Positions 11,526-47,700 of a DNA stretch of 64,000 bases are shown piece after piece. How positions within the stretch are numbered: position 1 is the first letter of the stretch; every line of letters begins with the position of its first letter. A program made the translations under genes and the position numbers. The DNA comes from Marchantia polymorpha subsp. ruderalis (taxonomy: Eukaryota; Streptophyta; Marchantiopsida; Marchantiales; Marchantiaceae), in the NCBI GenBank assembly GCA_037833965.1, contig AP031354.1, positions 29,614,001 to 29,678,000 of the forward strand, written 5' to 3'. Under the pieces are notes generated by a model that saw only the letters and a program-made list of their open reading frames with translations, had not been told where the DNA came from and searched no databases.

Positions 11526-11809
11526 CTCTAGTTAACTCTTGTGTAAAGAGGGAGCTTGTATTAAGTTTCTGTCTAGAACTTCCCGCGGAGTAATTATATA
11601 GACTACGAGATCTCTGATCCCTCTATGCCAGCAGGTTTTCTATTCACCTCTTTGTGTTATTACTCTATCCTGTTATGACCACGATCTAGTTCTAGTTAAC
11701 TCTCATAGAAAGAGGGGCCTTGTGTTAGGTTTCTGTCTAGAACTTCCCGCTGAGTAATAACATAGGTTACAGAGGTTATTGTTTCTTTAACACGAGTTAA
11801 GGAGTAGAT
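11526..11809 (+). mobile_element. 3' internal end of an upstream copia copy
   Basis: These 284 bases align with 26775-27058, and the offset (15249) stays constant up to the LTR start. They are the untranslated DNA that precedes the 3' LTR, including two diverged copies of a unit holding TAGTTAACTC, TCTAGAACTTCCCGC and GAGTAAT. No coding part of this upstream element remains; the homology stops sharply against AT-rich DNA at 11525/11526. Confidence 0.8.
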
Positions 11810-12061
11810 TGTTGAGATTAACTCCGGTTAAGGAGTAACCTCAGGTTATAGCTATTTATAGCTAGGTGTGTCGCTGGCTTTGGGTATAAATATACCCCCG
11901 GGCCAAAGCTTCTTTCTAGAGTAGCATTGTGTATTCACCTTGTGAGTAAACTTTTTTGCGTGTTTGAGCCGTGGACGTAGCACTTGAGGGTGAATCACGT
12001 TATATGAGTGTCCAGTGTGATTCTTGTGTGATTCGTACTTGGCTTTAGTTTTACGTTAAGA
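11810..12061 (+). repeat. Copia LTR (5' LTR of the main element)
   Basis: Starts TGTTGAG and ends near ACGTTAAGA. A TATA-like GGGTATAAATATACC (about 11880-11895) is a plausible LTR promoter. It pairs with the LTR at 27059-27311. Upstream it abuts 3'-internal DNA and downstream the primer site, so it is a shared LTR between two head-to-tail copies. Confidence 0.85.
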
Positions 12062-12062
12062 A

Positions 12063-12075
12063 TTGATATTAGAGC
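12063..12075 (+). other. Copia primer-binding site
   Basis: TTGATATTAGAGC directly follows the LTR and resembles the usual plant copia site TGGTATCAGAGC, complementary to the 3' part of initiator Met tRNA. The inverted copy at 10351-10363 has an even closer match. Confidence 0.7.
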
Positions 12076-12168
12076 TGACTTACGATTCGGAAAAGTTTTC
12101 AGTTTTTTGTTTGGTATTCCGTGACTTACACGTATAGTGAAAAACCTGTGTTAATTTCTATTAGTTTG

Positions 12169-12390
12169 TTAATAGAAGAAACTTTCAGTTTTTGTTTCAA
12201 TGTCAGAATTTTGTAGAGAGTTTTTTGTAGTCTCAAAGTTTTTTCAGAACTCTGTAGACAATTCTGCAAGTTGTGTTTTCTTTCTAAAAATTGTTGATAG
12301 AAGAAACTTTCAATCTTTGTTTCAGTGTCAGAATTTTGTCGAGAGTTTTTTGTAGTCTTAGAGTTTTTTCAAAACTCAGTAGACAATTTT
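12169..12390 (+). repeat. Tandem duplication in the copia leader
   Basis: Two units of about 98 bases spaced by about 124 bases (12169-12266 and 12293-12390). Both contain ATAGAAGAAACTTTCA, GTCAGAATTTTGT, GAGAGTTTTTTGTAGTCT and AGACAATT. They lie in the untranslated leader upstream of the inserted DNA. Confidence 0.75.
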
Positions 12391-12639
12391 CAAGGCGTGG
12401 GGGTAGACAGTGATGGAATGTTTTAGTCATGTCTATATAAGCTATTTACTGTGATTGAAGCATTTGCTGTCAAGTTGTTTAATGTTAAGTTTAGTTTAGT
12501 TTGGTGTCAGAGTTTTTCATTGACGGTGTGTATAGTGAAAAAGATTTCAACTTTTACTAAACGTTGCTAAGTTTCTATGCAAAGTTTTGACCGTTTTCAC
12601 TAACATTATGTCTTCGTTGGGGCATATCTAGGAGTGAGA

Positions 12640-13439
12640 GACAGGGATCAGGAGAGAGATAGAGAGAGAGAGGGACGAGTCTTTGTCTCGTACTTTTTTG
12701 CTTCCTTTGATGGTGTTACTGCTTCCGGTCCTGCTCTTTGCAGATCTTGGCACTCACGGTGGGACACGAGGTGCTAGTGACAAGGCTCGGTCAGTGACAG
12801 TCAACAAAAGTGTGTGAGCGAGGTCAGGAAGCGAGTACGAGCTGACTAGACCCCCAAAAGCGAAGAGTCGAAAAAGAGGTGTTTCCCGTTCTTCGCAGTT
12901 TTCGGCAAGGGCGAGAAGACTCGGGCAGCGGCAGCGGCGGCGGCAAAAGGCAGTGGCAAAATAGTGCAGCGGCGAAAGGCGGTGGCGGCCCGCAGAGTTT
13001 GGGCAGCGGCGGCAAAGGTTAGCGGACAGGGTCTCGAGCGGCGGGGTCCCACTGAACCTAAGGCGAGAACCCCCGAACGGCGGGGCACTCTACCCCCGAG
13101 GTAGGGGACTCACCTCCCGAGGCGAGCATCTGAGTTGCACAACGGGCCGAGAGCTTTGCAGCGGAGATCGAATGTTCCCCACTTGTAACACCCGAACCTC
13201 CCCCATCGAATAGTGACATTTTTCCGGTGTTTAGGTTTTTTTGATTCCTCGGCGACAACCCGCACGCACCGATCGGAAAAATTATTCTAGAACCTTTAGG
13301 GGACTTTTATTTATTTCTTTTACCGCCAGCTAGCAGCAAATTTTTTTCCAACGTTTAGGGTTTTTTAGGGTGCCCTCGTGGCAACGGCACAATTTTTTCT
13401 TGCATAGTTAAGGTTTTTCTGGTTTTTCGTGGCCAACTT
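12640..13439. other. GC-rich inserted DNA, unassigned
   Basis: Composition changes abruptly from the AT-rich leader to GAGAGA runs and then GCGGCGGCAAAGG-type low complexity at 12900-13030. From 13190 the sequence has T-runs alternating with GTTTAGGGTTTTT-like motifs. No protein family is recognisable; open frames on the minus strand are Pro/Arg-rich shadows. It seems to be the left part of the DNA that separates the copia leader from its gag. Confidence 0.4.
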
Positions 13440-13980
13440 CATTACAGGGCTCGTAGTAAGAGTCCACGTGGTTATAGTCATGTGATCGCACTCGGACGTT
13501 GTTGGTGTACCGTAGTCACGGTTGACGTGGTGACCTAAGAGAAAAACGGGGTCAGTACACAACGTGGTCACTGGTGACAACTCTGACGGTAACAGTGCAA
13601 GTCGCGAGTGACGGACATTGCCATAGCGGGCGACATTAGTCACGGGTGACAAGAGTTGCGGGTGACGGTGGTCACGGGCGATGGATATTTAAGTTGCGGG
13701 CGACACTAGTCACGGGCGACGAGACTCGCGGGTGACGGACTTTGCCATCGCGGGCGACAAGCGTCGCGGTTGACATTTTTTTCAATCGTGGGCAACGGAA
13801 GTCACGGGCGACAAGAGTCGCGGGTGACCGATATTTAAGTTGCGGGCGACGGTGCTCACGGGCGACGAGCTCGCAGGTGACAGGAGTCACGTACGACAGT
13901 AGTTGCGAGTGACGATTGTCACGGGCAACGGTGATCACGGGTGATCACAATATATCGCGGGCGACGGTGGTCGCACAAGG
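13440..13980. repeat. Array of about 23 hairpin-like 12-mers (GTCRCGGGYGAC type)
   Basis: A degenerate 12-mer with consensus [GA]T[CT][GA]CGGG[CT][GA]AC recurs roughly every 15-22 bases. Its halves are near-inverted repeats around a central GG: GTCACGGGTGAC and GTCACTGGTGAC pair perfectly, others have one mismatch or wobble pair. ATATTTAAGTTGCGGGCGAC occurs twice, near 13684 and 13830, which suggests larger duplicated blocks. A minus-strand frame of 88 codons runs through it, but its repeated VARD/VTRE peptide only mirrors the DNA repeat. Confidence 0.75.
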
Positions 13981-14559
13981 CATTTGTGCACAGGCGTTGT
14001 AGCACAACGTAGTATCAGTATTCCTTTGGATATCACTTAGTTTATATAAACATCTCCCAAAGTAAACCACTCCGCGTTCGTTTCCACGAAGATCTACAGT
14101 TTTCTCCCTTTAAGACAATAACAATAATACATAATCTAATTTCGTCTCCTACTTGTGGACTGGTTCGCAGTTAGTAACCTGTCTTTAATCCTATCATTTG
14201 GAAGCGACCGGCTCTATCCAGGAGTCCGGTGTACATATGACGTCCGTGTCCTTAAGACTACCATTCCATGCTGCCGTAAGTATAAGCTACCCTCCCATCT
14301 AGACTCCTTCCAGACGTTGGAAACCGTCAACACTCTATGCTTGACACCTTTCCACTCACTCCGGGCGCTCTTCAGATTCTCATACTATTCAACACTCTTC
14401 CCAAAGATCTACTGAAGACAACAGTACTTGGGCCTGTTTTGACAACCGTTCCACACATCAAAGCTACAGGTATGTTTTCAATTGCAAATCTCAAAACGGA
14501 GTACAAAAAGAGGCACTTGCCATGAGAAAATCCCCGGCTTAAATCCTATCTTCTACAAG
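13981..14559. other. Unassigned DNA next to the SLOMO-like fragment
   Basis: Moderate GC, no recognisable protein on either strand. It follows the F-box/LRR fragment in that fragment's reading direction and could hold its intron or noncoding remains. Short plus-strand frames (14155-14415, 14337-14525) show no family features. Confidence 0.4.
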
Positions 14560-15290
14560 TGACCAACTAAAATCATGACGAAGTTGGATTTCTTGGGCAC
14601 CACCGTTATCCAATACTGCATCCGTGATGCTCAAGTGCTATAAAGGAGCGCACTCTTGTGCTGACACGAAGGCGATCAACTTGTTCGTGGCTGACAGAGC
14701 GATATTCAAAGTTTAGTGACTTCCAAAAGTCATGATTACTGGCCACCCGCCACTGCTTACAGATCATGGCTGCTTGACATAGTGTGGTGTCATCAAGGCA
14801 CGAAAACACTTTGTGCAACAACTCGTTGGTAAGGTCCACCCGCATTTCACCATCTTTCATGTCACCATGCACAGTATTTAACCCTCCTTCATCACCATCC
14901 TCGCCCCCTTGTGCTCGGTATCCGAACTGATCACGTGGGCACTACTACTGCCAGCTGCGGTAATCCCTTCCTGGTCGTGCCCCATCCACACAAAAGACAA
15001 TTTGTTTATCCTGTCCTCCACCTGCATCAGGCTTGCCTTCTCCTTGACGATCTTCTTTCTGGATTCTTCATCTTTTTGTCTAACATTTGCTATTGCTTGT
15101 TTAGCAAGGTCTTCTTGAGCAATTCCATCCTTGGGATCTACTAACACAGAAAGCAGTCCGTTCTCAGTGGCAACAACAACATCATCTGTGTTCTCGTCCT
15201 TCTTGGCACTGGATTTGCCCTCAAAACTCTGCTCCTTCTCATGGAGCGAATTCCCAGATGAATTGCGAGGTATTATAGGACCATGAAATG
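14560..15290 (-). pseudogene. Fragment of an FBL15/SLOMO-like F-box gene
   Basis: SLOMO/FBL15 is an F-box/LRR subunit of an SCF ubiquitin ligase. Read on the minus strand, an acidic N-terminal part (LLSVLVDPKDG near 15150, then a Lys/Glu-rich helix) leads to the F-box at about 14660-14840. The F-box contains VDLTNELLHKVFSCLDD, CQAAMICKQWRVASNHDFW and SLNFEYRSVSHEQ, very close to my memory of plant SLOMO. At 14572-14633 follows SITDAVLDNGGAQEIQLRHD, which matches the first LRR region (SDAILGNGAQEIHLSHD). About 70 residues normally between these parts are missing, the frame changes, and the remaining LRRs are absent. It is therefore a truncated, internally deleted copy, not a working gene. It lies inside the retroelement complex. 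Confidence 0.75.
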
Positions 15291-16315
15291 GACACCTCTT
15301 CAGATCCCGTCTCTAACATAAGCCACTTTTTCTTAGAGGAGCTAGACATGGATGTATTTCAAAAACCTCGGTTGAGTAGTAAACAGACCGAAGGTTACTT
15401 TCAGCTAATTTTTCAGCAGGAATCATCACATCACCGTCCACCCTACCCTAGTGACTTTCAAACTCGAGTCCTTGTTTCCACGTTCCGTATTCCAAGCAAG
15501 GTTGAACTTTCACCTCCTGCAACCTGCTACTCCACCCTAGGGCAAAACCGGTCAAGTTTCATAAAAAGAACTCATTTTAGCCCCCGCGTCTCATATTCTC
15601 AACCCGTTCTGTACCTTAACTAACTCCCGTACCTGCTTGATGCAACCTCGTCCATTGCAAGATGAAGGTTTGAGCTACAGACCCCCTTCCCTACGAGCTG
15701 CTACGCATTCATCTCTAAAGATTAATCTCTTGCTCCACATGTTGCACTGTGTGGAAGAAAATTCGGCCCTTCGGGGAGGCCCTCCCGTTAGGTTATGAAT
15801 ACCCACTTCTCCGGAAGCTGACTCGGATGTAGTGATAGCTATTTCCTCCCAGTATTCATGCGGTCCGTCAGCGTCCATTTGCTAGACTTCTCCGTGGTAG
15901 GCAATGAGAGATCGATTGAGATTGACATGTGTATCCTCCTTCTCTACCAGAGCCACGCTTTCAAATTGATTGTGTCAAATAAAGAGGCTAAGATGTAATC
16001 AAAGATGCAAGCGCTCGCATCCGAAACTCAAGCAACTAACAAAAGAAAGGAAAATAGCGCAGTGTCACAAAGGATGATGAAAAGTAGCTAATACTGCAGA
16101 GCAAGCATGCGCCTGAAAAATCCAAAGATGATAGGAAGATGAAGCAACGGAAAGATGGAACACCGCGAGCACTACTACCCCGAAAGAATGGTGCCACAAA
16201 TTGCCAAGAATCGCATATAGTGAAACTACCATCAAGCTCCAAAACCTTGACCAAGATCAAGAAATAAGAGGGTCCTCCTGCCTCCTCTCCGCCGCTTTCA
16301 TCAACAATCAAACAC
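15291..16315. other. DNA between two gene fragments, unassigned
   Basis: Between the SLOMO-like and kanadaptin-like fragments. A minus-strand frame at 15675-15878 (67 codons, begins MDADGPHEYWEEIA) has ordinary amino-acid composition and may be a further captured exon, but I recognise no family. 15900-16300 is T-rich on the minus strand with several TTTCAG/TGCAG sites and resembles intron DNA. Confidence 0.35.
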
Positions 16316-16857
16316 TTTTGATCTTTTTAATAAGATATGACTTCTTGTCGAGAAGCGTTTCTGCAGTCTCTACTACTTGACTAACTTCCTTCTTTTTGCG
16401 TGCATTCAATTTGCTCGCACAATCGTAGAACTCGTCGTCACTGAGATCTTAGTCCTCGTCTTCATTCTTGAGGGACTTCTTTCCTCCTCGTTTTGTCCCA
16501 GACCTACCACTTATAGACTCCCGTATACTTTCATTCAAGGTCTCCTCCATATTTTTGAGCCCCTCGACAAGCTGCGTCATTCGAAGGAGGTTTTGTCAAA
16601 ATCACAGGTTCTGGCTTTCGAGCGGGAGGAGGGTTCTTGCTGCTAAAACGTGGAACCTTAAAGCCTAGAACTTGATCAGGTGACATACGAAAACGCAAGA
16701 GGTTCAGAGTTCTTGGTAAATGCAATGCTTGTATAGGAGGTGAAACCACTGCTGTTGCGTTAGAATCATCCCCATTAGCGGTGAGAGCGCTCGAACACTC
16801 CACCTTAGCGACCACCTCATTCGACTCAGCTTCAGAGTCCGTCATCTTTCTGTCCAT
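16316..16857 (-). pseudogene. Fragment of a kanadaptin-like (FHA protein) gene
   Basis: Kanadaptin homologues (plant At5g38840 type) are nuclear proteins with an N-terminal FHA domain followed by coiled-coil and acidic parts. On the minus strand a frame begins at ATG 16857 (MDRKMTDSEAESNE) and contains FKVPRFSSKNPPPARKPEP. A second frame then carries LVEGLKNMEETLNESIRES, a Gly/Lys stretch, DLSDDEFYDCASK and VETAETLLDKK (16330-16378). The last three blocks closely match the family pattern EETLNDSIRES, DEDDFYDRT and VETxDSLxDKR. The FHA domain is missing between the two parts, the frame shifts, and an in-frame TAA lies in the acidic stretch near 16447. This is a broken, shortened copy. The N-terminal assignment is weaker than the central one. 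Confidence 0.65.
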
Positions 16858-17629
16858 GCTCGAAAAAAAACAAGGGCTTTACAAGGGTTTAGCCCACAGA
16901 GCGACCGAGCGCAGAAGACAGAAGAGCCTGTCAATGGCAAATCCGACGGGCATCAAAATTCCTACGAGCCCGAACGTTCACCGCCATCCACAGGCACCCG
17001 CAGAATTCAGTTCCCTCTATTCCTCCTCATGAGGATTCTTCTTTGTCCGAAATAAAACGAAGTTCCTGACAATGCACGAATTTCACCCTCATCTTCGGCC
17101 GCTCGAAGCGCCCGAGCTCACAGACGGCCCTGAGTTGCGCACCAGCACTTGCCCTTCCCTGATGCTCTCACTCGCATATCTGAGATCTTGCGACCTGCCC
17201 TACCGCGAAGTACGAGGTACGTTCGTCGTTCACTTTCTACCTCCTTCTCCTCTCGCTTGCTCCTACAGCTCCTGCCTAAAAATTTTCACTGCCTCGGCCT
17301 TGTCTTCCTGTTGCCATCGATCACCGCGATGACAAGAAGACCAACCAAACCCTCCAAACCCCGTGCGGCCTTTGCCCTTGTTCTTCAAACTATCATCTTG
17401 ACAATTTCACGTACGATACAAAACAATGGCCATCATCAGGAGGAGTTGTAGAACAAATGGAAGGAGGAGAAGGAAAAAGGAAAAGATGATGAAGATCTCT
17501 CCAGCAGTACAGAGAAGAAAGACGGAGGAAGTGACGGACAAAAAAAACACCCACGCACAAGACGCACATCACCACCAGACAGAGAGAAGAGATAGAGGGA
17601 CAGACGGGCCGTTTGCTGCAAGGCGCATA
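16858..17629. other. Unassigned DNA at the edge of the gene-fragment block
   Basis: On the minus strand this would be upstream of the kanadaptin-like start. The part at 17430-17610 is purine-rich on the plus strand and encodes Lys/Arg/Glu-rich low complexity in several frames. No family was recognised. It ends where the CGCCTTTGGCG units begin (about 17632). Confidence 0.4.
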
Positions 17630-18398
17630 ATCCGCCTTTGGCGATACGCCTTTGGCGCTAGGGAAATCCCTCAGAGCTTATTCAATTCACAACGCCTTGA
17701 CTTGGTTAGGGTCTCGTTGGAAAGAACTCAACACTCTCGTTCTAACGAGCTTAAGAACGCTTGGAACAGATGAGGACTCAAGGAGTTATGATTGTCGGAA
17801 GATGTGTAGACGAACGCCTTCGGCGGAAGGAGTTCGTCTCCGGCGGAAAATCCGCCTTCGGCCCTAGATGTTCGCCTTCGGGGGTGAATGTCTTCGTACG
17901 GCGCCGTCGGCGCCAGCGCATCAAGATTAGGTAAGTGCCTTCGGGGGTAGCATCTCGTACGGTCCGCCTTCGGCTCAACGCCTTCGGCGCGACGGACATG
18001 TGTGCCTTCGGCGGGACAGAGCTCCGGCGGCAAGAGCGCCTTCGGAGGGACAAGAGGGATCGACAGACAAGACAAGATCCGTTGACCACGGTCAACGCCT
18101 TCGGCACAGCCGCCTTCGGCGATGCACCTAGGGCGACGGACGTCTTCAAAGAGTTCGCCTTCGGCGATGCGGGTCAACGCCTTCGGCGGTGCGGGATGGA
18201 TACGAGTTGCGAGTCGGCCAGAGGCGAAAGCCTTCGCCGCCGCGCCTTCGGCGCTGCGCGAACTTGGCCGCGGCGAAGTACGATGGCGGAAATCAAATTG
18301 AATTTTTGAGCATGTGAGTCCGCGCGACGGCGGAGCGTGAAGCTGCGTGTGCGAGAGGAGGGCCGTTACGCCTCCAAGCCGGCACAGCCATCAAGTGA

Positions 18399-19755
18399 GT
18401 GGACACTCACGACCAAGTGTCGACAATGACATCTTGTGAGCCAAGGGCGGACAACTCATTCTTTAATTTGCGATTTCAATTTCTTGTAAGAGCTGCGCGC
18501 GCACACATTCTGGCGGAGAGAAATTCGAGACACCGACGCGCAAAGACTCGCAAGTTGACAGAGAGAGAATTGAGTGCGCGACCGCCGGAATTGAGAGAGA
18601 TTAGAGTTTGCAGAGGAATCGCAGCCGCGGGCAAGAAGCTTGGACATAGCGGAGGAGAGTTTACGAAATCCAATTTCAAGAACGCAATGTCGAAGGCCAC
18701 TCAGCTGCGGATGATTCCACTAAAGATTCCGCAGATATGGGGTGCGCGCTTTCTAGGACCGGCTGTTTGCGGTGAAGCTCGTTTCCTCCAGTGGGGATGG
18801 AATTACGTGTGCCAGGACATGGTGCGCGAATGGCAAAGGGAGAGACACCAACCTACGCGGGTTTTGACCGCACGTAGAGCGTTGGACCGTCCAAGATTGG
18901 GGACAAGTACTGGGAAGATGTGCAGGCGAGGACAAGTACTTCATATTTGACAGTGAGAGCATCAAGGTGACGAAGGAGGAAGAGATTTCTTTCGCGACCT
19001 TGTTCAAAAGTGAAAAGTCCATCAAGAACGGGTACAGGACCCGAGACTACAAGGATCGCTACCGCAGAAATGTCGGGGTAGCACTTCTCCAACTCTTGCA
19101 GCCGCACAGGACTACATACATCACTTCTTGGCAAGTGTCTTTTCTGGAGCTGGCGTTGGCCGGAGCTCCGATTCACTGGTCGCGTATCTTGTGGAAGATT
19201 ACGCGGCAACATGCGCTTGAGGAGAAGGGGGGATCGATCAATCATCTCTCCTCTTTCTTGATCAACTTTTATCGGTTGATGGATTGCTTAATCGCGACCG
19301 ATCGTGTTCAATATCCGCTGCTGTCACTCAGCAATCCTTGGAGTTATGTGAGGGATATCGAGGTCGACACCGACGCGGAAGAGACTCCGGCCTCCACGCC
19401 ACCTGCCCAACAGAGTGCGGGGAGCGAAACATTCGCAGCACGAGTGCCGTGGAAGCGGAGATGGAAGGGAGAACCAGAGAAGGGTCAACATCGAGACTCG
19501 GCTGTTCTCAAACGGAAGCGGCCACTGGAGGAGCTTTGCAGTCGGCCGAAGCAGAAAGCACGCAGGCTCGTATTGCCTACAAGTAGCGCGGAGACAGGGC
19601 GTGCCGCCGGAGCGAAGGAAACACCATCCTCGGAGGAGGATGGGAACACGCGGACGGCAGAGCGATCGGCAGACCTCCCTACGCCGAAGCACGGTCGCCT
19701 TCGGCGGAAGCTAGACGGCCTTCGGGTCAAGAGAGAAGACACGCAGCACCGATGA
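18399..19755 (+). mobile_element. Coding remnant, Trp-rich globular part of the fossil
   Basis: This stretch has the amino-acid composition of a folded protein, with motifs such as LKIPQIWGARFLGPAVCGE, ITSWQVSFLELALAGAPIHW and LINFYRLMDCLIATDRVQYP, then a basic low-complexity tail (WKRRWKGEPEK, KRKRPLEELC). It resembles the poorly characterised putative plant transposon proteins linked to retroelement derivatives. That assignment is from general memory and is uncertain. It is a broken fossil. Confidence 0.4.
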
Positions 19756-19789
19756 GTGTGCCGGCAACGGATAGGAGAGCCGCACGAGC

Positions 19790-20160
19790 ACCGTACGCGG
19801 ACTCGCCTTCGGAGCTTCGGCCTTCGGTGCAGCGGAGGAAGGAAAAGGAGCCGGCGGAAGATCCGCCTTCGGCTCAAGAGCCTTCGGGGCAAGGGCCTTC
19901 GACGGTAAGTCCGCCGGAAAGTGCGCCTTCGGGCCGAGGAGTTGTGAGTAGGGAGCCGGCGGGGAACGCGCCTTCGGCGCAAGGGACATCAGGCGAGCCG
20001 CCTTCGGCTCAAGCGCCTTCGGCGGAGGCACCTTCGGAGCAAGACCTAACGGAGGAGCGGAATGACAGTTGGAAGGAAGACACACGTGTGCGCGCTGCAC
20101 AATTGCAATCCGCGCACACACCTTCCGCACGAACGCCTTCGGCGATGCGGAGTTAGTAGC
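19790..20160 (+). repeat. 15-bp / pentapeptide repeat tract (APSAQ type)
   Basis: GCCTTCGG units spaced at multiples of about 15 bases encode a run of Pro-Ser-Ala/Gly-Gln/Glu pentapeptides (for example PPSAQAPSAEAPSEQ). The tract lies between the globular and coiled-coil parts of the fossil and looks like an expandable linker. Confidence 0.65.
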
Positions 20161-21307
20161 AGCCGGACGGGCGAGCATTGCGAGTTTGGCACAACCCAAC
20201 TCTCCCACCGCCTTAGACATTCTGGCCGGAAGCAGCGAGGCAACAGCGGCAACAGTGGTGGCAGACGGCGCAGGCACTACGAAGCCACACTCACGAGAGT
20301 CGCCGGAGAATTCAGTGGCAACCGAAATCCTCAATTCGGAGGATGACGAGGGAGGATCGACGGAATCGGCATCGGGATCGGGATCGAGTGAGGAGAAGAA
20401 ACAATCAGTGGCAGGCACGCCGACGGCGGCACTCTGCGAGCAGGTGGTACCTCTGTTGAGGTACCTTGATCGCAAGGTAGAGAAGTATGCAGACCCCCGC
20501 TAGCCTGGGTCCTACGTCGAGTTAGTGCGTAGACGAACCCGCACTAAAGTCCACACCAGCAAGTTGTTGGCACATCTGGATGGGGACATTAAGGATCTGC
20601 GGGAGAAGAATGAGTGTCTGTTGGGCCACATTACTCTCACTCGGAAGATGCACAAGGTCGTCGACAAGTTGAAAGATGAGAAACTTGAAGAGGCGACGAA
20701 GGAGTTCGCCAAGGAGAAGGCGAAGCTCATAGATGAGCTGGATTCTGAGCAGACTAAGAATCGAATTTTGTCAGAGGAGCTCGTGCGGCAAACACGGTTG
20801 TTGGAGCAGTGTCAGCTCGCACGTCAGGCGGATGAAGAGTTAATCTGCAAACTGCAATCGGAGTGCGGGGAATTGAGAGCGCAGCGTGCGGAGGCCGAAT
20901 TGCAGTTAGTTATAGTTGAAGACGATCGCCGGCGGGAGGCAGATCGCACGAAGGAGGAGTTGGCGAGGCGAGTCAACCACTGTCTCAGAGGTTACACCCA
21001 CTGGGAAGTGACGGCGCAAGAGAAACTCACACTACGCGAGTTAGAGCTTCGTGCGACGGGGTTGGTGTCAGGTGACAGTCGGAGCCGGCGGCGAGTGGCA
21101 AAGAAGTTAGATTCGTTTTTGTCAAGGTCGCGGGACGCCATGGCCACCCTCGAGACAGAAGTTATTGCGGTGTTGTGGCGACTGGGACTGCGCAGTCGAG
21201 CTGAAGACTGGTCGGGTAGGGAGTTAGTGCGCGGCAGTCCGTCGCGCAGAAGGCGAAGCACGGGATCTGCAGAGTGTAGCGTAGCGTGGTTCTGTGCAGG
21301 CGCGTAG
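20160..21307 (+). mobile_element. Coding remnant, coiled-coil part of the fossil
   Basis: An acidic Ser/Glu-rich stretch (20340-20410) precedes a long Lys/Glu/Leu-rich region of coiled-coil character (about 20570-21000; for example KLKDEKLEEATKEFAKEKAK), then an Arg-rich end. No enzyme motif is visible. It is probably a structural or gag-like product of the element. Broken fossil. Confidence 0.45.
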
Positions 21308-22585
21308 TGCAGTGTAGTGTAGTGTTAGTTAGGACTTAGAGGGTATAAAGTAGTTCAAGGCGTCTTGCCTTGGAATTCTTCCAGTTTCGGAAGTGCAGAT
21401 CAAGAACTCATTTTCTCTGCGTGTTTGTGTCCTTAGTTTTGTCACCACGCAAGAGGAGCTACAACTTGGCGATCCGCATTTTGTAGCTGAAGGCCTTCGG
21501 CCGAATGTTCAGAGCTAGTACACTGGTTAGAGACTTGAGTAGTTCGGATCTACACCTGCGGGTGATTGCCGATGCTTAGAGCTAGTTACTAATTAGATAC
21601 TTGAACAGTTTCCCCCTTACACTTTCGAGTGATTGTTCTTGATTGTACTCCTTCGGGATTTTTCCCCTGAATGCCAAAGTGAAGTTTTGTTACTTCGAGT
21701 AAGCCTTGGTTGTAATTCAGGTTACGCTGCAGCAGGTGCCTTCAGGGCAACCCCTGTAGTATTTATGGGAATGACAAGTGCCTAAGAATTCAAACTCTTC
21801 AATAGACTGTTATGGTGTGCTACTGGATCTTTTCTCAGTTGAGTCTCTCAGTTGGACCTGTGTTCTCTGCGCGTTTTGTGAGTTGAGTGTGTTGTTCACC
21901 ACGTGTGAGTGACTTCGATCCGAAGTAGGAAGTCCAATCCGGGTTCCCTGTGCTAGCAGAAACTAGTGGAAGGGTTGTAAAAGCCGGAGTTGGGAATCAC
22001 TACCCGCAGATTCGCTGAGTGTATTCACGAGAGACTTCCCCCCTGAAATCTTAAGTAGAGGTCCTAACCGACCTCTGAGTTGTGTTTCTATAGTTTCAGG
22101 TGTGTGTGTGTGTGTGTGTGTGTTGAGTGAACTACGCTGCACTCTGCGACCTCCGAGTGATCTCCGAGTGAACACTTCCAGTATTTCTGGGAGTGACAGT
22201 CGCCTGAGAATTCAAACTCTTCAATAGTCTGTTAAATGTGACACTTTGTACTCTGTGTGTTGCCTCTGTCCCTGTGGGTTCGACCTTTCTACCACTATAT
22301 TGCAGTTTTAGCCTTTGGTGGGTTATTACACACACGATGCTCACATGATACCTCAACCTTCTTATCTCGTAGTTACTACTTTCTAACCTACAAACTTACC
22401 TATTTTATAATGGAAACTTCAACTTTTTTTAAATTTTTTGGGCCAAAAATACTTGTTCGGCCGGTTACCAGTGGAATTCACTTTCCACAGGTGTGTATCT
22501 TCACTATTTTCAGCAGCTGAAAATGCATCGAAAGGACGAAATTGACACGGCAACAGACGGTGTCTCTAGTTTTCGTCGAACTTAG

Positions 22586-26739: not shown

Positions 26740-27048
26740 TATATTTACTCTATCCTGTGATGGCTACGGCTTAGCTCTAGTTAACTCTTGTGTAAAGAGA
26801 GAGCTTGTGTTAAGTTTCTGTCTAGAACTTCCCGCGGAGTAATTATATAGACTACGAGATCTTTGATTCCTCTATGCAAGCAGGTTTTCTATTCACCTCT
26901 TTGTGTTTTTACTCTATCTTGTTATAGCTACGATCTAGTTCTAGTTAACTCTTGTATAAAGATGGGCCTTGTGTTATGTTTTTATCTAGAACTTCCCGCT
27001 GAGTAATAATATAGATTACAGAGGTTACTGTTTCCTTAACACGAGTTA
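26740..27048 (+). repeat. Duplicated unit in the copia 3' untranslated region
   Basis: Two diverged units, about 26743-26900 and 26905-27030. Each carries CTATC(C/T)TGT(G/T)AT, TAGTTAACTCTTGT, TCTAGAACTTCCCGC and GAGTAAT(T/A)ATATAGA. The same pair occurs at 11526-11800, so the duplication predates the separation of the two copies. Confidence 0.75.
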
Positions 27049-27058
27049 AGGGGGAGAT

Positions 27059-27311
27059 TGTTGAGGTTAACTCCGTTTAAGGAGTAACCTCAGGTTATAG
27101 CTATTTATAGCTATGTGTGTCGCTGACTTTGGGTGTAAATATACCTCCAAGGCTAAGGCTTCTTTCTGGAGCAGCATTGTGTATTCACCTTGTGAGTAAA
27201 CTCTCTCGCATGTTTGAGCCGTGGACGTAGCCCTTGAGGGTGAACCACGTTATATGAGTGTCCAGTGTGATTTTCGTGTGATTCGTACTTGGCTTTAGAT
27301 TTTACGTTAAG
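27059..27311 (+). repeat. Copia 3' LTR
   Basis: Begins TGTTGAGG just after the polypurine tract and ends near TTTTACGTTAAGA. It is colinear with 11810-12061, with about 22 differences and one or two short indels by eye. Confidence 0.85.
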
Positions 27312-44938: not shown

Positions 44939-46192
44939 TCAAGCAATGGCATCGAGGCGAGGCTCGAAGGCCAAGCCCTCGAGGTTGGGGCAATCGGAAA
45001 CCCAGATCCATGTCTTGTGGGAGAGGTTGAAAAGCAAGCCCATGTCACAGTTGTCTCGGGTGAGGAAGATGAGGTCTCCATGGGCGGTGCAGTAGAAGCT
45101 CTCGGAAGGCCTGCAGAGAAAGTGGTCCGACATGCGCTGAGGCATTCTGCCTACCTCTTTCCACTTCATGGTCTTCTGATCCAGCAGCCATATGCACACG
45201 GACAGAACATGGTGTCTGACGGACTTGCCCACGATCACGATGCACCCTTTGCAACCGACCAGGTTCCGGAACTGACAGTAGCCCGGCAGCCGGCCCGTCT
45301 TCACCTTCACCCACACCTCCTGCTGCAGATTGTAAGCGAGCAGCGCACAATTGTACCAGCGAGGAGTGAGACAATACAGATTGCCATTGGAGAAGGCAAT
45401 GTTGCCCGAGACCTCCTCGCCTCGGGGAAGGCTGCCCACTCTTCGCCAGGAGCAAGTGGTGGAGTCAAAAACTTCGGTGGTCAGCAGCCCAGCCACGATG
45501 ACTTTGTAGCTGAAGGGACGCCGCTCGGCCACCATGCTCACGAGGATGGGCCTCTGCTTGCACGGCATCGGGGGCAGCTCCCTCCAGCTCTTGGTCAAGG
45601 GATTGCACACAAACAGAGAGCAGAAATCATCGACATAGCCGTGGAATTTGTTGATCAGGCACAGCAATCCCCCGGCCGAGGCCACCGGGAAGCCTGCATG
45701 AGGGGGCAGGAAGCTGATGGGGATGTCGTGCCACTTGCAGAGCACCGGGTTGTAGCTGGACAGCAATCTGCTGTACTCGCAGTTGGAGATCTTCATGAAA
45801 TACGGCCCCTGGGTCGGCACCTGCGAGCACACCTCGAGGAAGCTGGGCGAGTACATGATGGTGCTCCATTTCTTACACACCGTCCGAAGCCTGAGAAAGC
45901 TGGCCACGGGCAACCAGGCCAGGATTCGGTCCACCAGATCTTCGGGCAATTGACTCCACAGCCTCTCGTTCATCACGAGATCGCAGCGATTGTGATCGTC
46001 CGCGGCCGTGCAGGTGTCGCTGGCGTTGGCACCACCACCACCACCCGCATCGAATCGCTGCTGCTGCTGCTGCTGCTGCTGCCATGTGTTGGAGGTGCAT
46101 GCTGGATAGCTCGCATCCTCCTGCCCCTCGACGAACACTCCTCCGCCTCTTTTGGAATTATTCTGCAGCACCGCGTATGAACTCACATCCAT
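44939..46192 (-). CDS. F-box/kelch-like protein (LCR/UFO/At5g15710 type)
   Basis: Intact intronless frame of 417 residues from ATG 46192 to TGA 44939. Likely substrate receptor of an SCF (Skp1-Cullin-F-box) ubiquitin ligase. Residues 1-70 are low complexity with poly-Gln (38-45, a CTG run on the plus strand) and poly-Gly. The F-box spans about 78-118 (LWSQLPEDLVDRILAWLPVA, RLRTVCKKWS). The rest follows the F-box-associated kelch/beta-propeller pattern: GGLLCLINKFHGY, LFVCNPLTKSWRELPPM, VFDSTTCSWRRVGSLP, MKWKEVGRMPQ, LLFNLSHKTWIWVSDCP. Length suits the family (about 410-470). The KEVGRMP segment carries a miR394-like complementary site. Unlike UFO it lacks a long C-terminal Gly-rich insert. 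Family placement is firm; orthology to LCR, UFO or another member is not decided. Confidence 0.92.
   Translation of the reverse strand: MDVSSYAVLQNNSKRGGGVFVEGQEDASYPACTSNTWQQQQQQQQRFDAGGGGGANASDTCTAADDHNRCDLVMNERLWSQLPEDLVDRILAWLPVASFLRLRTVCKKWSTIMYSPSFLEVCSQVPTQGPYFMKISNCEYSRLLSSYNPVLCKWHDIPISFLPPHAGFPVASAGGLLCLINKFHGYVDDFCSLFVCNPLTKSWRELPPMPCKQRPILVSMVAERRPFSYKVIVAGLLTTEVFDSTTCSWRRVGSLPRGEEVSGNIAFSNGNLYCLTPRWYNCALLAYNLQQEVWVKVKTGRLPGYCQFRNLVGCKGCIVIVGKSVRHHVLSVCIWLLDQKTMKWKEVGRMPQRMSDHFLCRPSESFYCTAHGDLIFLTRDNCDMGLLFNLSHKTWIWVSDCPNLEGLAFEPRLDAIA
45139..45158 (-). promoter_or_regulatory. miR394-like complementary site in the F-box coding region
   Basis: Sense sequence AGAGGTAGGCAGAATGCCTC, codons about 345-352. 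Against miR394 as I remember it (UUGGCAUUCUGUCCACCUCC), positions 3-11 pair perfectly. Position 12 is a G:U pair, 14 and 20 mismatch, and the two 5'-most positions are unpaired. It encodes the conserved E-V-x-R-M-P of this family, so similarity may come from protein constraint. Confidence 0.4.
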
Positions 46193-47700
46193 GCTCGTGG
46201 ATCCTCCAGCAGCACCGCCGCCCTGGTCCTCAGCAGCAGCTCTGTGCGACTAGTTCACGTTCCAATTTCAAAAGGTTTTAAACCAATTCTGTTGCCCTCA
46301 TCTCTCTTATACTTCCGTGAGTGAGTGGTCTGTCGGTCTGTCAGACGAAACCTAGAGTGCTCACAGATTCATGCACTGCCCTATTCATTGATGCTTCTGG
46401 AAGCAGCAGCAGCAGAACATTTCTCGACTCCCAAACTTCAACCACAATGCCCAGGTACGCACTTTACACGAGGACGAAGATGAAGGTTACGATGAATTTG
46501 CATTTGGAGATGAGCGAATGAATCAAATTCGTGTAGATTTCGTGACAGGCAGTGGTGATTTCTGGTGGCTTATGAAAACGAATAGAAATAGAGAAAGGAG
46601 GAACTGGAGATTAGAAATCGACACGGAAGACGAGGAGCAGAAGGAGATGGAGATGGAGATGGAGGGAGAGAGGACCTACAAATGGGGGCCAGAAAGCCGC
46701 GGCGACAAGTCCATGGGGAGGACCGACGATCGGCAGATGAGGCATTTAACACGACTGCCGGAGGAGCCACCTGACAAACGAATTGGGTAAACATGAAAAG
46801 GAAGGAGTCTTGAACCACGGGGCGTAGGAGATCAAGGCACAGATTGCCACCAAGCACAGCGCACACAGCGCACCGCACGCGAATGACACCCACCACCTGG
46901 GTGTCAGACGGAATCCTCGTAACAACCCCACCTCTCTCGCCCTCTTATGGCTGCCTGTCCGTCCGTTTGTCTGCCTGCCTGCCTGCCTCCCTGCCTGCCT
47001 GCTTCCCTGCTTCCCTGCCCCACTCGCTCTCCCACTCTCTCTCTCTTCCACTGCTCTCCAAATCTCACATGGGATTTCTCGCAATCTGTCCGTCTCTGAC
47101 GTGCTTCCTGAGACGCATGGGCGTCTGTAGCGAGTGGCTTCGGAACTGGATATGCTGACCGCTGAATCTGGAATCAGCAATCAATAGCTCTTGATGATGA
47201 TTGCGAGCCCAAAAGAAGGCGAACGCGAAGCTTTCAGACCTCGTACGTCCTCTCTGCAACAGTCTTCCTTCTTCTTTCATCAATCTATCAATCGCGGATT
47301 CGCGGATTCGGGAATCGATCCTCTGATTGCCAATCCCGATCCTTCAGAGCACGCCCTCGTGAGCAGGAAATGCTTAATTTACTCCCCTCACTGCCTCTCT
47401 CTCTCTCTCTAATCCTCTCTCCTCTCTCTCTCTCCTCTCTCTGCTTCTGCCACTTTCTCGGTCGGTCGGTCAACGTTCCGTGCTGCGACCACCGCGCAGA
47501 CGATCGTCCTCTGGCTGAGCTTTGGAAATCGTCAGCAGCAGCAGGGATCGAAGAAATTTCGAGGGCAGATGGGACGAGGTTTCGTCGGTCAAGATCGGGA
47601 AGAAAAGAGGCGGAAATGGTGCGGGAGGAGGAAGATGGTCGTCAGCAATTCCAGGACGCAGAATGCGTGATGCACAGCTTGCACACGTGGAGCTGAATCG
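46193..47700. other. Upstream region of the F-box gene
   Basis: Presumed 5' leader and promoter of the minus-strand F-box gene. It includes a (TGCC)n-like run (46972-47015) and CT-rich tracts (47034-47045, 47396-47450; GA-rich on the gene's sense strand). No convincing TATA box was placed. Frames here are low-complexity. Confidence 0.4.

Follow-up and report, generated by a model that had tools for sequence, protein, structure and literature searches.

Apparent mosaics of host mRNA pieces inside the long terminal repeats of a Marchantia retrotransposon family

In the maize retroelement Bs1, which possesses long terminal repeats (LTRs), the captured pieces of host genes lie between the LTRs. 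Bs1 is reported to have taken up segments of three host genes (PMC13317346) and to have captured exons only (PMC4717578). Exon-only pieces, from three genes in GmaRetroS15, are also described for this TRIM (terminal-repeat retrotransposon in miniature) and its relatives in soybean and Medicago, which show 5-bp target site duplications (TSDs), and putative gene fragments were reported from 30 TRIM elements in seven subfamilies (PMC4717578). In Cassandra, Helenus and Ajax the LTR itself houses foreign sequence, which is passed on together with the repeat (PMC10886601), and in the barley element BARE-2 abnormal template switching brought foreign sequence into the LTR (PMC13317346). Finally, microsimilarity guides the switch from element RNA to mRNA in the LTR-mediated retroposition of mRNA (PMC5408686). 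In this paper we describe an LTR of Marchantia polymorpha subsp. ruderalis that holds pieces of six unlinked host loci, and we compare it with its sister copies in the same genome. The locus lies in a stretch of 64,000 nucleotides (hereafter the window; positions without prefix refer to it), which corresponds to C5:29614001-29678000 in genome coordinates (assembly GCA_037833965.1, contig AP031354.1).

A mosaic of six donor loci

The tiling of the mosaic was defined by a search of the plant's own genome (241,466,482 bases in nine contigs, denoted C with a number) and realignment to the fetched donor loci; the candidates scored in such searches were limited in number, so that all repeat counts given here are lower bounds. 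The mosaic extends over 14571-17619 on the minus strand and consists of 14 aligned blocks, 84-96% identical to six unlinked donor loci on four chromosomes, with the gaps left in this tiling filled by two short exon pieces (one of donor C, one of donor E, see below). A first-pass annotation, made from the letters of the window, had recognised at 14560-16857 a kanadaptin-like and a SLOMO/FBL15-like fragment side by side, both on the minus strand and reading in the same direction. Both fragments are real, as this block is 89-96% identical to the donor loci at the DNA level (E down to 8e-258), and their parental genes are indeed unlinked. The image of two neighbouring pieces had to be given up: the mosaic is longer, includes four more donors, and the six loci are interleaved. 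That stage had revealed neither how many donors contributed, nor which element is the carrier, nor that the pieces lie within an LTR.

Read along the minus strand, the donors, labelled A to F, follow each other in the order A B C D C E F E C. They are located at C4:26.93 (A), C4:9.12 (B), C5:18.18 (C), C7:26.63 (D), C4:12.10 (E) and C2:29.23 Mb (F), i.e. on C2, on C4 (three separate loci), on C5 and on C7. The mosaic opens with locus A, which bears no gene name (17352-17619; C4:26932664-26932930, 90%), followed by locus B (17240-17354; C4:9119211-9119327, 84%), which lies upstream of a frame with the Pfam domain ANKRD13_C, and by the 5'-most pieces of gene C (17121-17273; C5:18179712-18180031). 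Three pieces of gene D (16287-17128; C7:26626029-26630489), with one intron exactly removed and the FHA part skipped, separate these from another 5' part of C (15685-16290; C5:18180192-18180794). Then come a portion of gene E that lies upstream of the FHA-encoding sequence (15476-15693; C4:12102899-12103117), gene F (15027-15472; C2:29226374-29226819, 94.6%) and the C-terminal part of E (14910-15037; C4:12102194-12102314 together with the beginning of the exon that follows), again with one intron exactly removed. Four exon pieces of C, from which two introns are exactly missing, complete the mosaic (14571-14909; C5:18182157-18185410).

Donor C possesses an F-box (PF12937, E 3e-11) and leucine-rich repeats in Pfam and is presumably SLOMO/FBL15-like. 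Donor D (C7:26.626-26.630 Mb) is named kanadaptin because the FHA exons skipped in the cargo match PDB entry 4h87 'Kanadaptin' (E 5e-19), which also bears out the loss of this domain that had been read from the fragment; a protein search with D returned no match, and none of the nine matches to its C-terminal frame carries a telling name. Donor E contains an FHA domain (PF00498), and donor F contains UVSSA_N and DUF2043 (PF20867, PF09740), its homologues being named UVSSA. Most blocks match one place in the genome; the stretch 15476-15693 has five more relatives (79-87%), at C6:30.10, C7:5.15, C8:16.31, 16.68 and 16.76 Mb.

An open frame of 144 amino acids (14878-15312, minus strand) crosses pieces of UVSSA, of the FHA protein and of the F-box gene, and might thus speak for a real host gene with unusual exons. 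We regard it as a chance fusion frame and consider a host gene, like a segmental duplication, highly improbable: the donors are spread over four chromosomes, and those frames of the C and D cargo that were examined are broken. The differences between the UVSSA cargo and its donor are even over codon positions (9, 7 and 8), and this piece therefore gives no sign of protein constraint, its pattern resembling unconstrained decay.

Base-level reading identified six introns that were lost exactly at the donor GT..AG. Four of them belong to the window, with exon joins at CAG|TGAC in D, AAA|GTGT and CAAG|TTGGTC in C, and TTCCG|AGCAT in E; the two others, read by eye, are from sister copies of the carrier, namely L048 (donor at C9:9.47 Mb) and L033 (donor at C2:18.10 Mb). 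Judged by coordinates only, more introns are absent from copy L035 (donor at C9:8.76 Mb, a P-type ATPase, with eight matching blocks of which one breaks the order) and from copy L031, whose cargo comes in seven blocks from C5:28.53 Mb. No retained intron was recognised in the cargo, in a check that used no donor gene models and did not extend to gap-free blocks of up to 1.9 kb (L047). Five other within-gene joins are without a canonical intron (D 2569/5831 and C 1819/1980 in the window, the C4 donor in L033, the C2 donor in L047 and the C6 donor in L048) and look like jumps; one further join in gene C, after exon 3, is flanked by GT..AG yet lies inside exons. The loss of about 70 residues between F-box and leucine-rich repeats, noticed in the first pass, is flanked by GT..AG in the donor and may reflect alternative splicing of the captured message or a jump of the reverse transcriptase (RT). 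As far as sequence comparison can tell, the cargo is composed of reverse-transcribed pieces of host mRNA, spliced wherever this was checkable.

At the joins between donors, bases are shared in register: 3 nt at A-B, 4 at B-C (where the blocks overlap by 34 bases and the exact join is uncertain), 8 at C-D, 4 at D-C, 7 at C-E, 7 at E-F, 11 at F-E, and at E-C 4 nt as computed or 6 nt once the extra exon of E is counted. The eight between-donor joins thus display a microhomology of 3-11 nt, compared with averages of 1.4-1.9 for randomly placed joins in the same donors, and seven of the eight reach P<0.05. Joins within genes share 2-4 nt (P 0.03 to 0.53). After the excursions, genes C and E are taken up again further on and in the same direction; the stretches skipped in C may include introns. 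Around the excursion into F, 446 bases of F have replaced 584 donor bases of E, FHA coding sequence among them; a plain insertion of F would not bring this about. Cargo and donors differ by 7.8% in C (all six blocks), 8.3% in E, 6.8% in D and 5.4% in F.

The carrier LTR and its sister copies

The carrier is one LTR of an LTR retrotransposon other than the copia-like element around it, is bounded by a 5-bp TSD and is split by a third element. The feature in the window is a solo LTR with its sense on the minus strand, and the retrotransposon is probably of Ty3/gypsy type. The U5-side (3') part of the LTR, 573 bp at 13998-14570 (minus strand), is a family-shared block whose minus-strand end reads ..GTGCTACA in the family; the U3-side (5') part at 22332-22489 (minus strand) starts with TGTGGAAAGTG and includes a family-shared core of about 130 bp. 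The ends have the form TG..CA. The TSD reads GGCGT on the left (13993-13997) and GGTGT on the right (22490-22494). Relatives of the surrounding element (L039, L040 and L043) continue directly from 13997 to 22486 and contain GGTGT once, and the carrier is therefore a separate insert. The first-pass placement between a copia leader and its gag is accordingly right as a position and wrong as a statement of membership.

Patterns of the LTR ends, allowing up to three mismatches, recur 22 times for the U5 side and 23 times for the U3 side, with none in the reversed control. Pairing by position gave 16 pairs, 2.2-16.8 kb apart including nested insertions, with 6 left and 7 right ends unpaired. Both flanks were read in nine copies, L050 with its altered right end standing outside this count. 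Seven of the nine possess a 5-bp TSD, exact in L033, L047, L048, L049 and the copy at C6:2.67 Mb and with one mismatch in the window and L035, and the two remaining ones (C1:4.31 and C8:12.76 Mb) adjoin a putative primer binding site (PBS) or polypurine tract (PPT) on one side. What we read as the PBS, TATGATTTTTGGCGCCGCTGCCGGGGATC or close variants, follows the minus-strand U5 end in four of the 19 ends shown (18 rows), all on C1 (L031, L060, L062, L067), and the candidate PPT, AAAAAGGGGTAA, directly precedes the U3 end in two of nine rows (L076, L077). This PBS is presumably of the tRNA-Asp type. The six copies aligned from one end to the other have neither motif beside them, as solo LTRs should, and their cargo is flanked by the core of about 130 bp on the U3 side and by one of at least 444 bp on the U5 side.

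Among 40 scored candidates out of 825, the internal region of the carrier was found at no fewer than four places, each of them on C1 and abutting such an LTR end. The frames behind L031 contain zinc knuckles and a weak match to Retrotrans_gag (E 7e-4, below the cut-off). Contig C1 appears to be chrU. All of the seven solo copies lie on autosomes and the internal remnants on C1, a distribution to be expected if chrU, for want of recombination, preserves such remnants. Distant relatives of this region (65-71%) occur in threes on the same contig, at 2.30, 2.69 and 3.06 Mb and at 2.36, 2.76 and 3.12 Mb; chrU is described as triplicated in structure, with which these sets of three are in line (PMC13078153).

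The agents of capture proposed in the first pass were Pack-MULE, Helitron or LTR elements, of which the mobile-element origin and the LTR type stood and the two others fell. Pack-MULEs possess terminal inverted repeats and a TSD of 9-11 bp and keep introns, while Helitrons make no TSD, end in TC..CTRR and take up genomic pieces with their introns. A DNA transposon that gathered genomic pieces would account for gene fragments from several loci in one mobile unit, and the unit itself is without terminal repeats: in L048 the direct and inverted similarity of the ends does not exceed that of shuffles (inverted score 16 against a shuffle mean of 17.5). This last result equally denies it the inverted repeat of a Pack-MULE, and given the exact absence of introns where tested, which counts unless cDNA served as template, the 5-bp TSD, the TG..CA ends, and the PBS and PPT beside sister copies, we attach hardly any probability to such an origin. 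At 13 nt from the left end stands a PBS-like TGGTATCAG, which might have been the primer site of a plus-strand element; this reading and that of a Ginger-type DNA transposon were both dropped in favour of the better PBS after the minus-strand end in four copies. An Rfam search of L033 and a tRNA scan of the window found nothing.

Donors were found in all six copies with a readable interior search (window included), and two more copies share that cargo; L034, L050 and the unfetched copies lie outside this survey. Over all copies there are at least 18 donor loci, several of them known from a single short match only, and the cargo is mostly different between sister copies. Three other donors (C5:21.96, C2:18.10 and C4:19.71 Mb) contributed to L033, and L047 and its sibling L032 have donors at C2:8.72, C4:1.36 and C4:23.99 Mb in common, of which L049 holds only a part; no donor was listed in the own-genome search of L049, which was swamped by a common transposon present in this copy. 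The cargo of L048 stems from C9:9.47, C5:15.24, C7:27.65 and C6:2.75 Mb, and L035 shares its U3-side cargo, to which it adds the P-type ATPase as well as pieces that match C7:5.1 Mb; L048 is devoid of most of what L035 carries. Such partial sharing suggests that capture and loss continue over cycles. The donor at C9:9.47 Mb is presumably a GYF-domain gene; Pfam returned nothing for L035 2034-2465 or 2711-3700. A match to NF-X1 in L032 scored 20.0 bits and thereby missed the curated cut-off of 22.7. Long open frames of the ATPase (286 and 186 amino acids) persist at L035 3855-5273 (plus strand), and its blocks are 93-98% identical to the donor, so that not every capture by this family is old.

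That cargo travels with the LTR is supported most directly by C1:5180387-5184212 (chrU), where the cargo of L035 recurs with 97% identity over 3.8 kb within a copy adjoining the PBS, that is, where a cargo-filled LTR stands as 5' LTR. Furthermore, direction is readable for nine donors and agrees with the sense of the LTR in all nine; it was derived from splice signals for C, D, E and the donors in L048 and L033, from the frame for F, the ATPase and the weakly matching NF-X1-like donor, and from the downstream frame for B, with donor A, the L031 donor and the remaining donors outside the count. This uniform orientation over several copies bears on a further explanation, namely that cDNA pieces were put into an existing LTR by DNA repair or that host retrocopies were inserted singly. 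Use of cDNA as filler in break repair would also predict joins with microhomology and a nested order. Retrocopies made by LINEs (long interspersed nuclear elements) carry a 3' poly(A) and a TSD of their own for each insertion; no run of A stands at the block ends examined, and gene E resumes with a stretch skipped. Together with the one orientation and the mostly different cargo of several LTR copies, this makes repair or single retrocopies improbable.

The surrounding element, copia by eye, has its 5' repeat and leader at 11526-13997 (plus strand, interrupted by the carrier) and the repeat partner at 26775-27302, with direct repeats at 11526-11825/26775-27074 (92%) and 11901-12052/27151-27302 (91%). 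The third element, of high copy number with long copies in L038 and L044, occupies 17618-22331 (plus strand) inside the carrier LTR; it comprises GCCTTCGGCG-rich repeats and open reading frames (ORFs), two of which have no Pfam match, and further matches to it lie in or near the carrier copies L031, L033, L034 and L035. Elsewhere in the window, a 436-amino-acid ORF at 44939-46249 (minus strand) resembles, by eye, an F-box/kelch-type host gene, with an open frame of 424 amino acids antisense to it.

A possible route of capture

We consider it fairly probable that the RT leaves the element RNA near first-strand transfer, copies mRNAs by template switching and returns at U3, so that cargo joins the LTR. 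Minus-strand DNA primed at the PBS would first copy U5 and a portion of R. The nascent strand would then miss its usual transfer to the 3' R, anneal over a few nucleotides to an mRNA in the particle and copy this instead; it could move on to other mRNAs or return to one already visited, and would finally rejoin the element RNA near U3. Both LTRs would be made from this stretch, the cargo thereby becoming an inherited part of the LTR to which later cycles could add pieces or from which they could remove them, and recombination between LTRs would then leave solo LTRs. Escape after U5 and return at U3 are favoured by the one sense orientation, by the position of the cargo, which has a short core on its U3 side and a long one on its U5 side, and by splicing and microhomology. 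A jump at this very point is part of normal LTR replication (PMC13317346).

Alternatively, the same capture of spliced mRNAs by RT could occur at any point of cDNA synthesis over many cycles, with the bias towards the LTR arising from the survival of solo LTRs and the need for a functional internal region. Such successive replacements agree with the nesting, C(D)C(E(F)E)C, and with the partly shared cargo, and, with internal regions at four places among the 40 scored candidates, captures there may be lost from view. On the other hand, the three internal copies read (1.8-2.6 kb) contain no clear donor block apart from a 350-bp match to C4, and the end-to-end copies confine their cargo between the two cores. 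We regard capture at any point as possible and clearly less probable than escape near first-strand transfer.

Several observations weigh against the latter. U3, R and U5 were assigned by position only; among the 22 U5-end and 23 U3-end matches and their 16 pairs there is no same-orientation repeat, i.e. no copy with two matching LTRs; the internal sequence read stops short of pol (RT, integrase), and the frame behind L031 taken by eye for a protease has no Pfam match. The preference of cargo for the LTR over the internal region rests on those 1.8-2.6 kb of three copies, and the C4 match (C4:21532227-21532586), a lone autosomal 350-bp stretch 88% identical to the carrier gag region, could be a piece of the element or a captured host piece. 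Regarding the joins, their register came from the alignments, and A-B (3 nt) is unremarkable (P 0.13). Outer blocks of the nested order are not clearly older than inner ones; since the block divergences overlap, a single reaction and several cycles are not separable for the mosaic in the window.

More tentatively, a loose first-strand transfer in this family could make its LTRs running recorders of host mRNAs, in which each cycle may write several spliced pieces in a row, with returns to earlier templates, into both ends of the daughters. If so, the family would spread chimeric host exons inside a promoter-bearing repeat. Isolated events are the usual basis for inferring that RT switches between element RNA and mRNA, and here one genome offers 16 two-ended LTR copies; those examined carry readable records of donors, exons and junctions, from which jump points, templates per particle and the order of capture become measurable. 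The LTR, duplicated in each cycle, can thus be the gene-carrying part of an element, and searches between LTRs would miss such cargo. The host, moreover, is a haploid model plant with tools for testing.

Comparison with described systems

Searches of open-access papers brought up no mRNA mosaic located inside an LTR, which does not prove that none has been reported. As in Bs1- and TRIM-type transduction, the cargo consists of intron-free exons from several genes; it lies inside the LTR, not between LTRs. The likeness to Bs1 is that of a plant LTR element with exon-only segments of host genes, whereas the Marchantia carrier assembles six loci in one copy, and its cargo mostly differs from copy to copy. 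TRIMs hold their pieces in the internal region of elements of 1.2-1.4 kb, and the available excerpt describes no return to a donor (PMC4717578), in contrast to the LTR cargo with returns reported here. In Cassandra, Helenus and Ajax, by comparison, the foreign part of the LTR is a family-wide promoter sequence of small RNAs, and no mRNA mosaic is mentioned in the excerpt (PMC10886601), while in BARE-2 it derives from another retrotransposon (PMC13317346) and not, as in the carrier LTR, from host mRNA. Compared with the LTR-mediated retroposition of mRNA, the carrier has six donors with returns, placed in the LTR. Capture of exons as such is therefore known from Bs1 and some TRIMs, and we regard as a new variant of it a family that captures inside its own LTRs.
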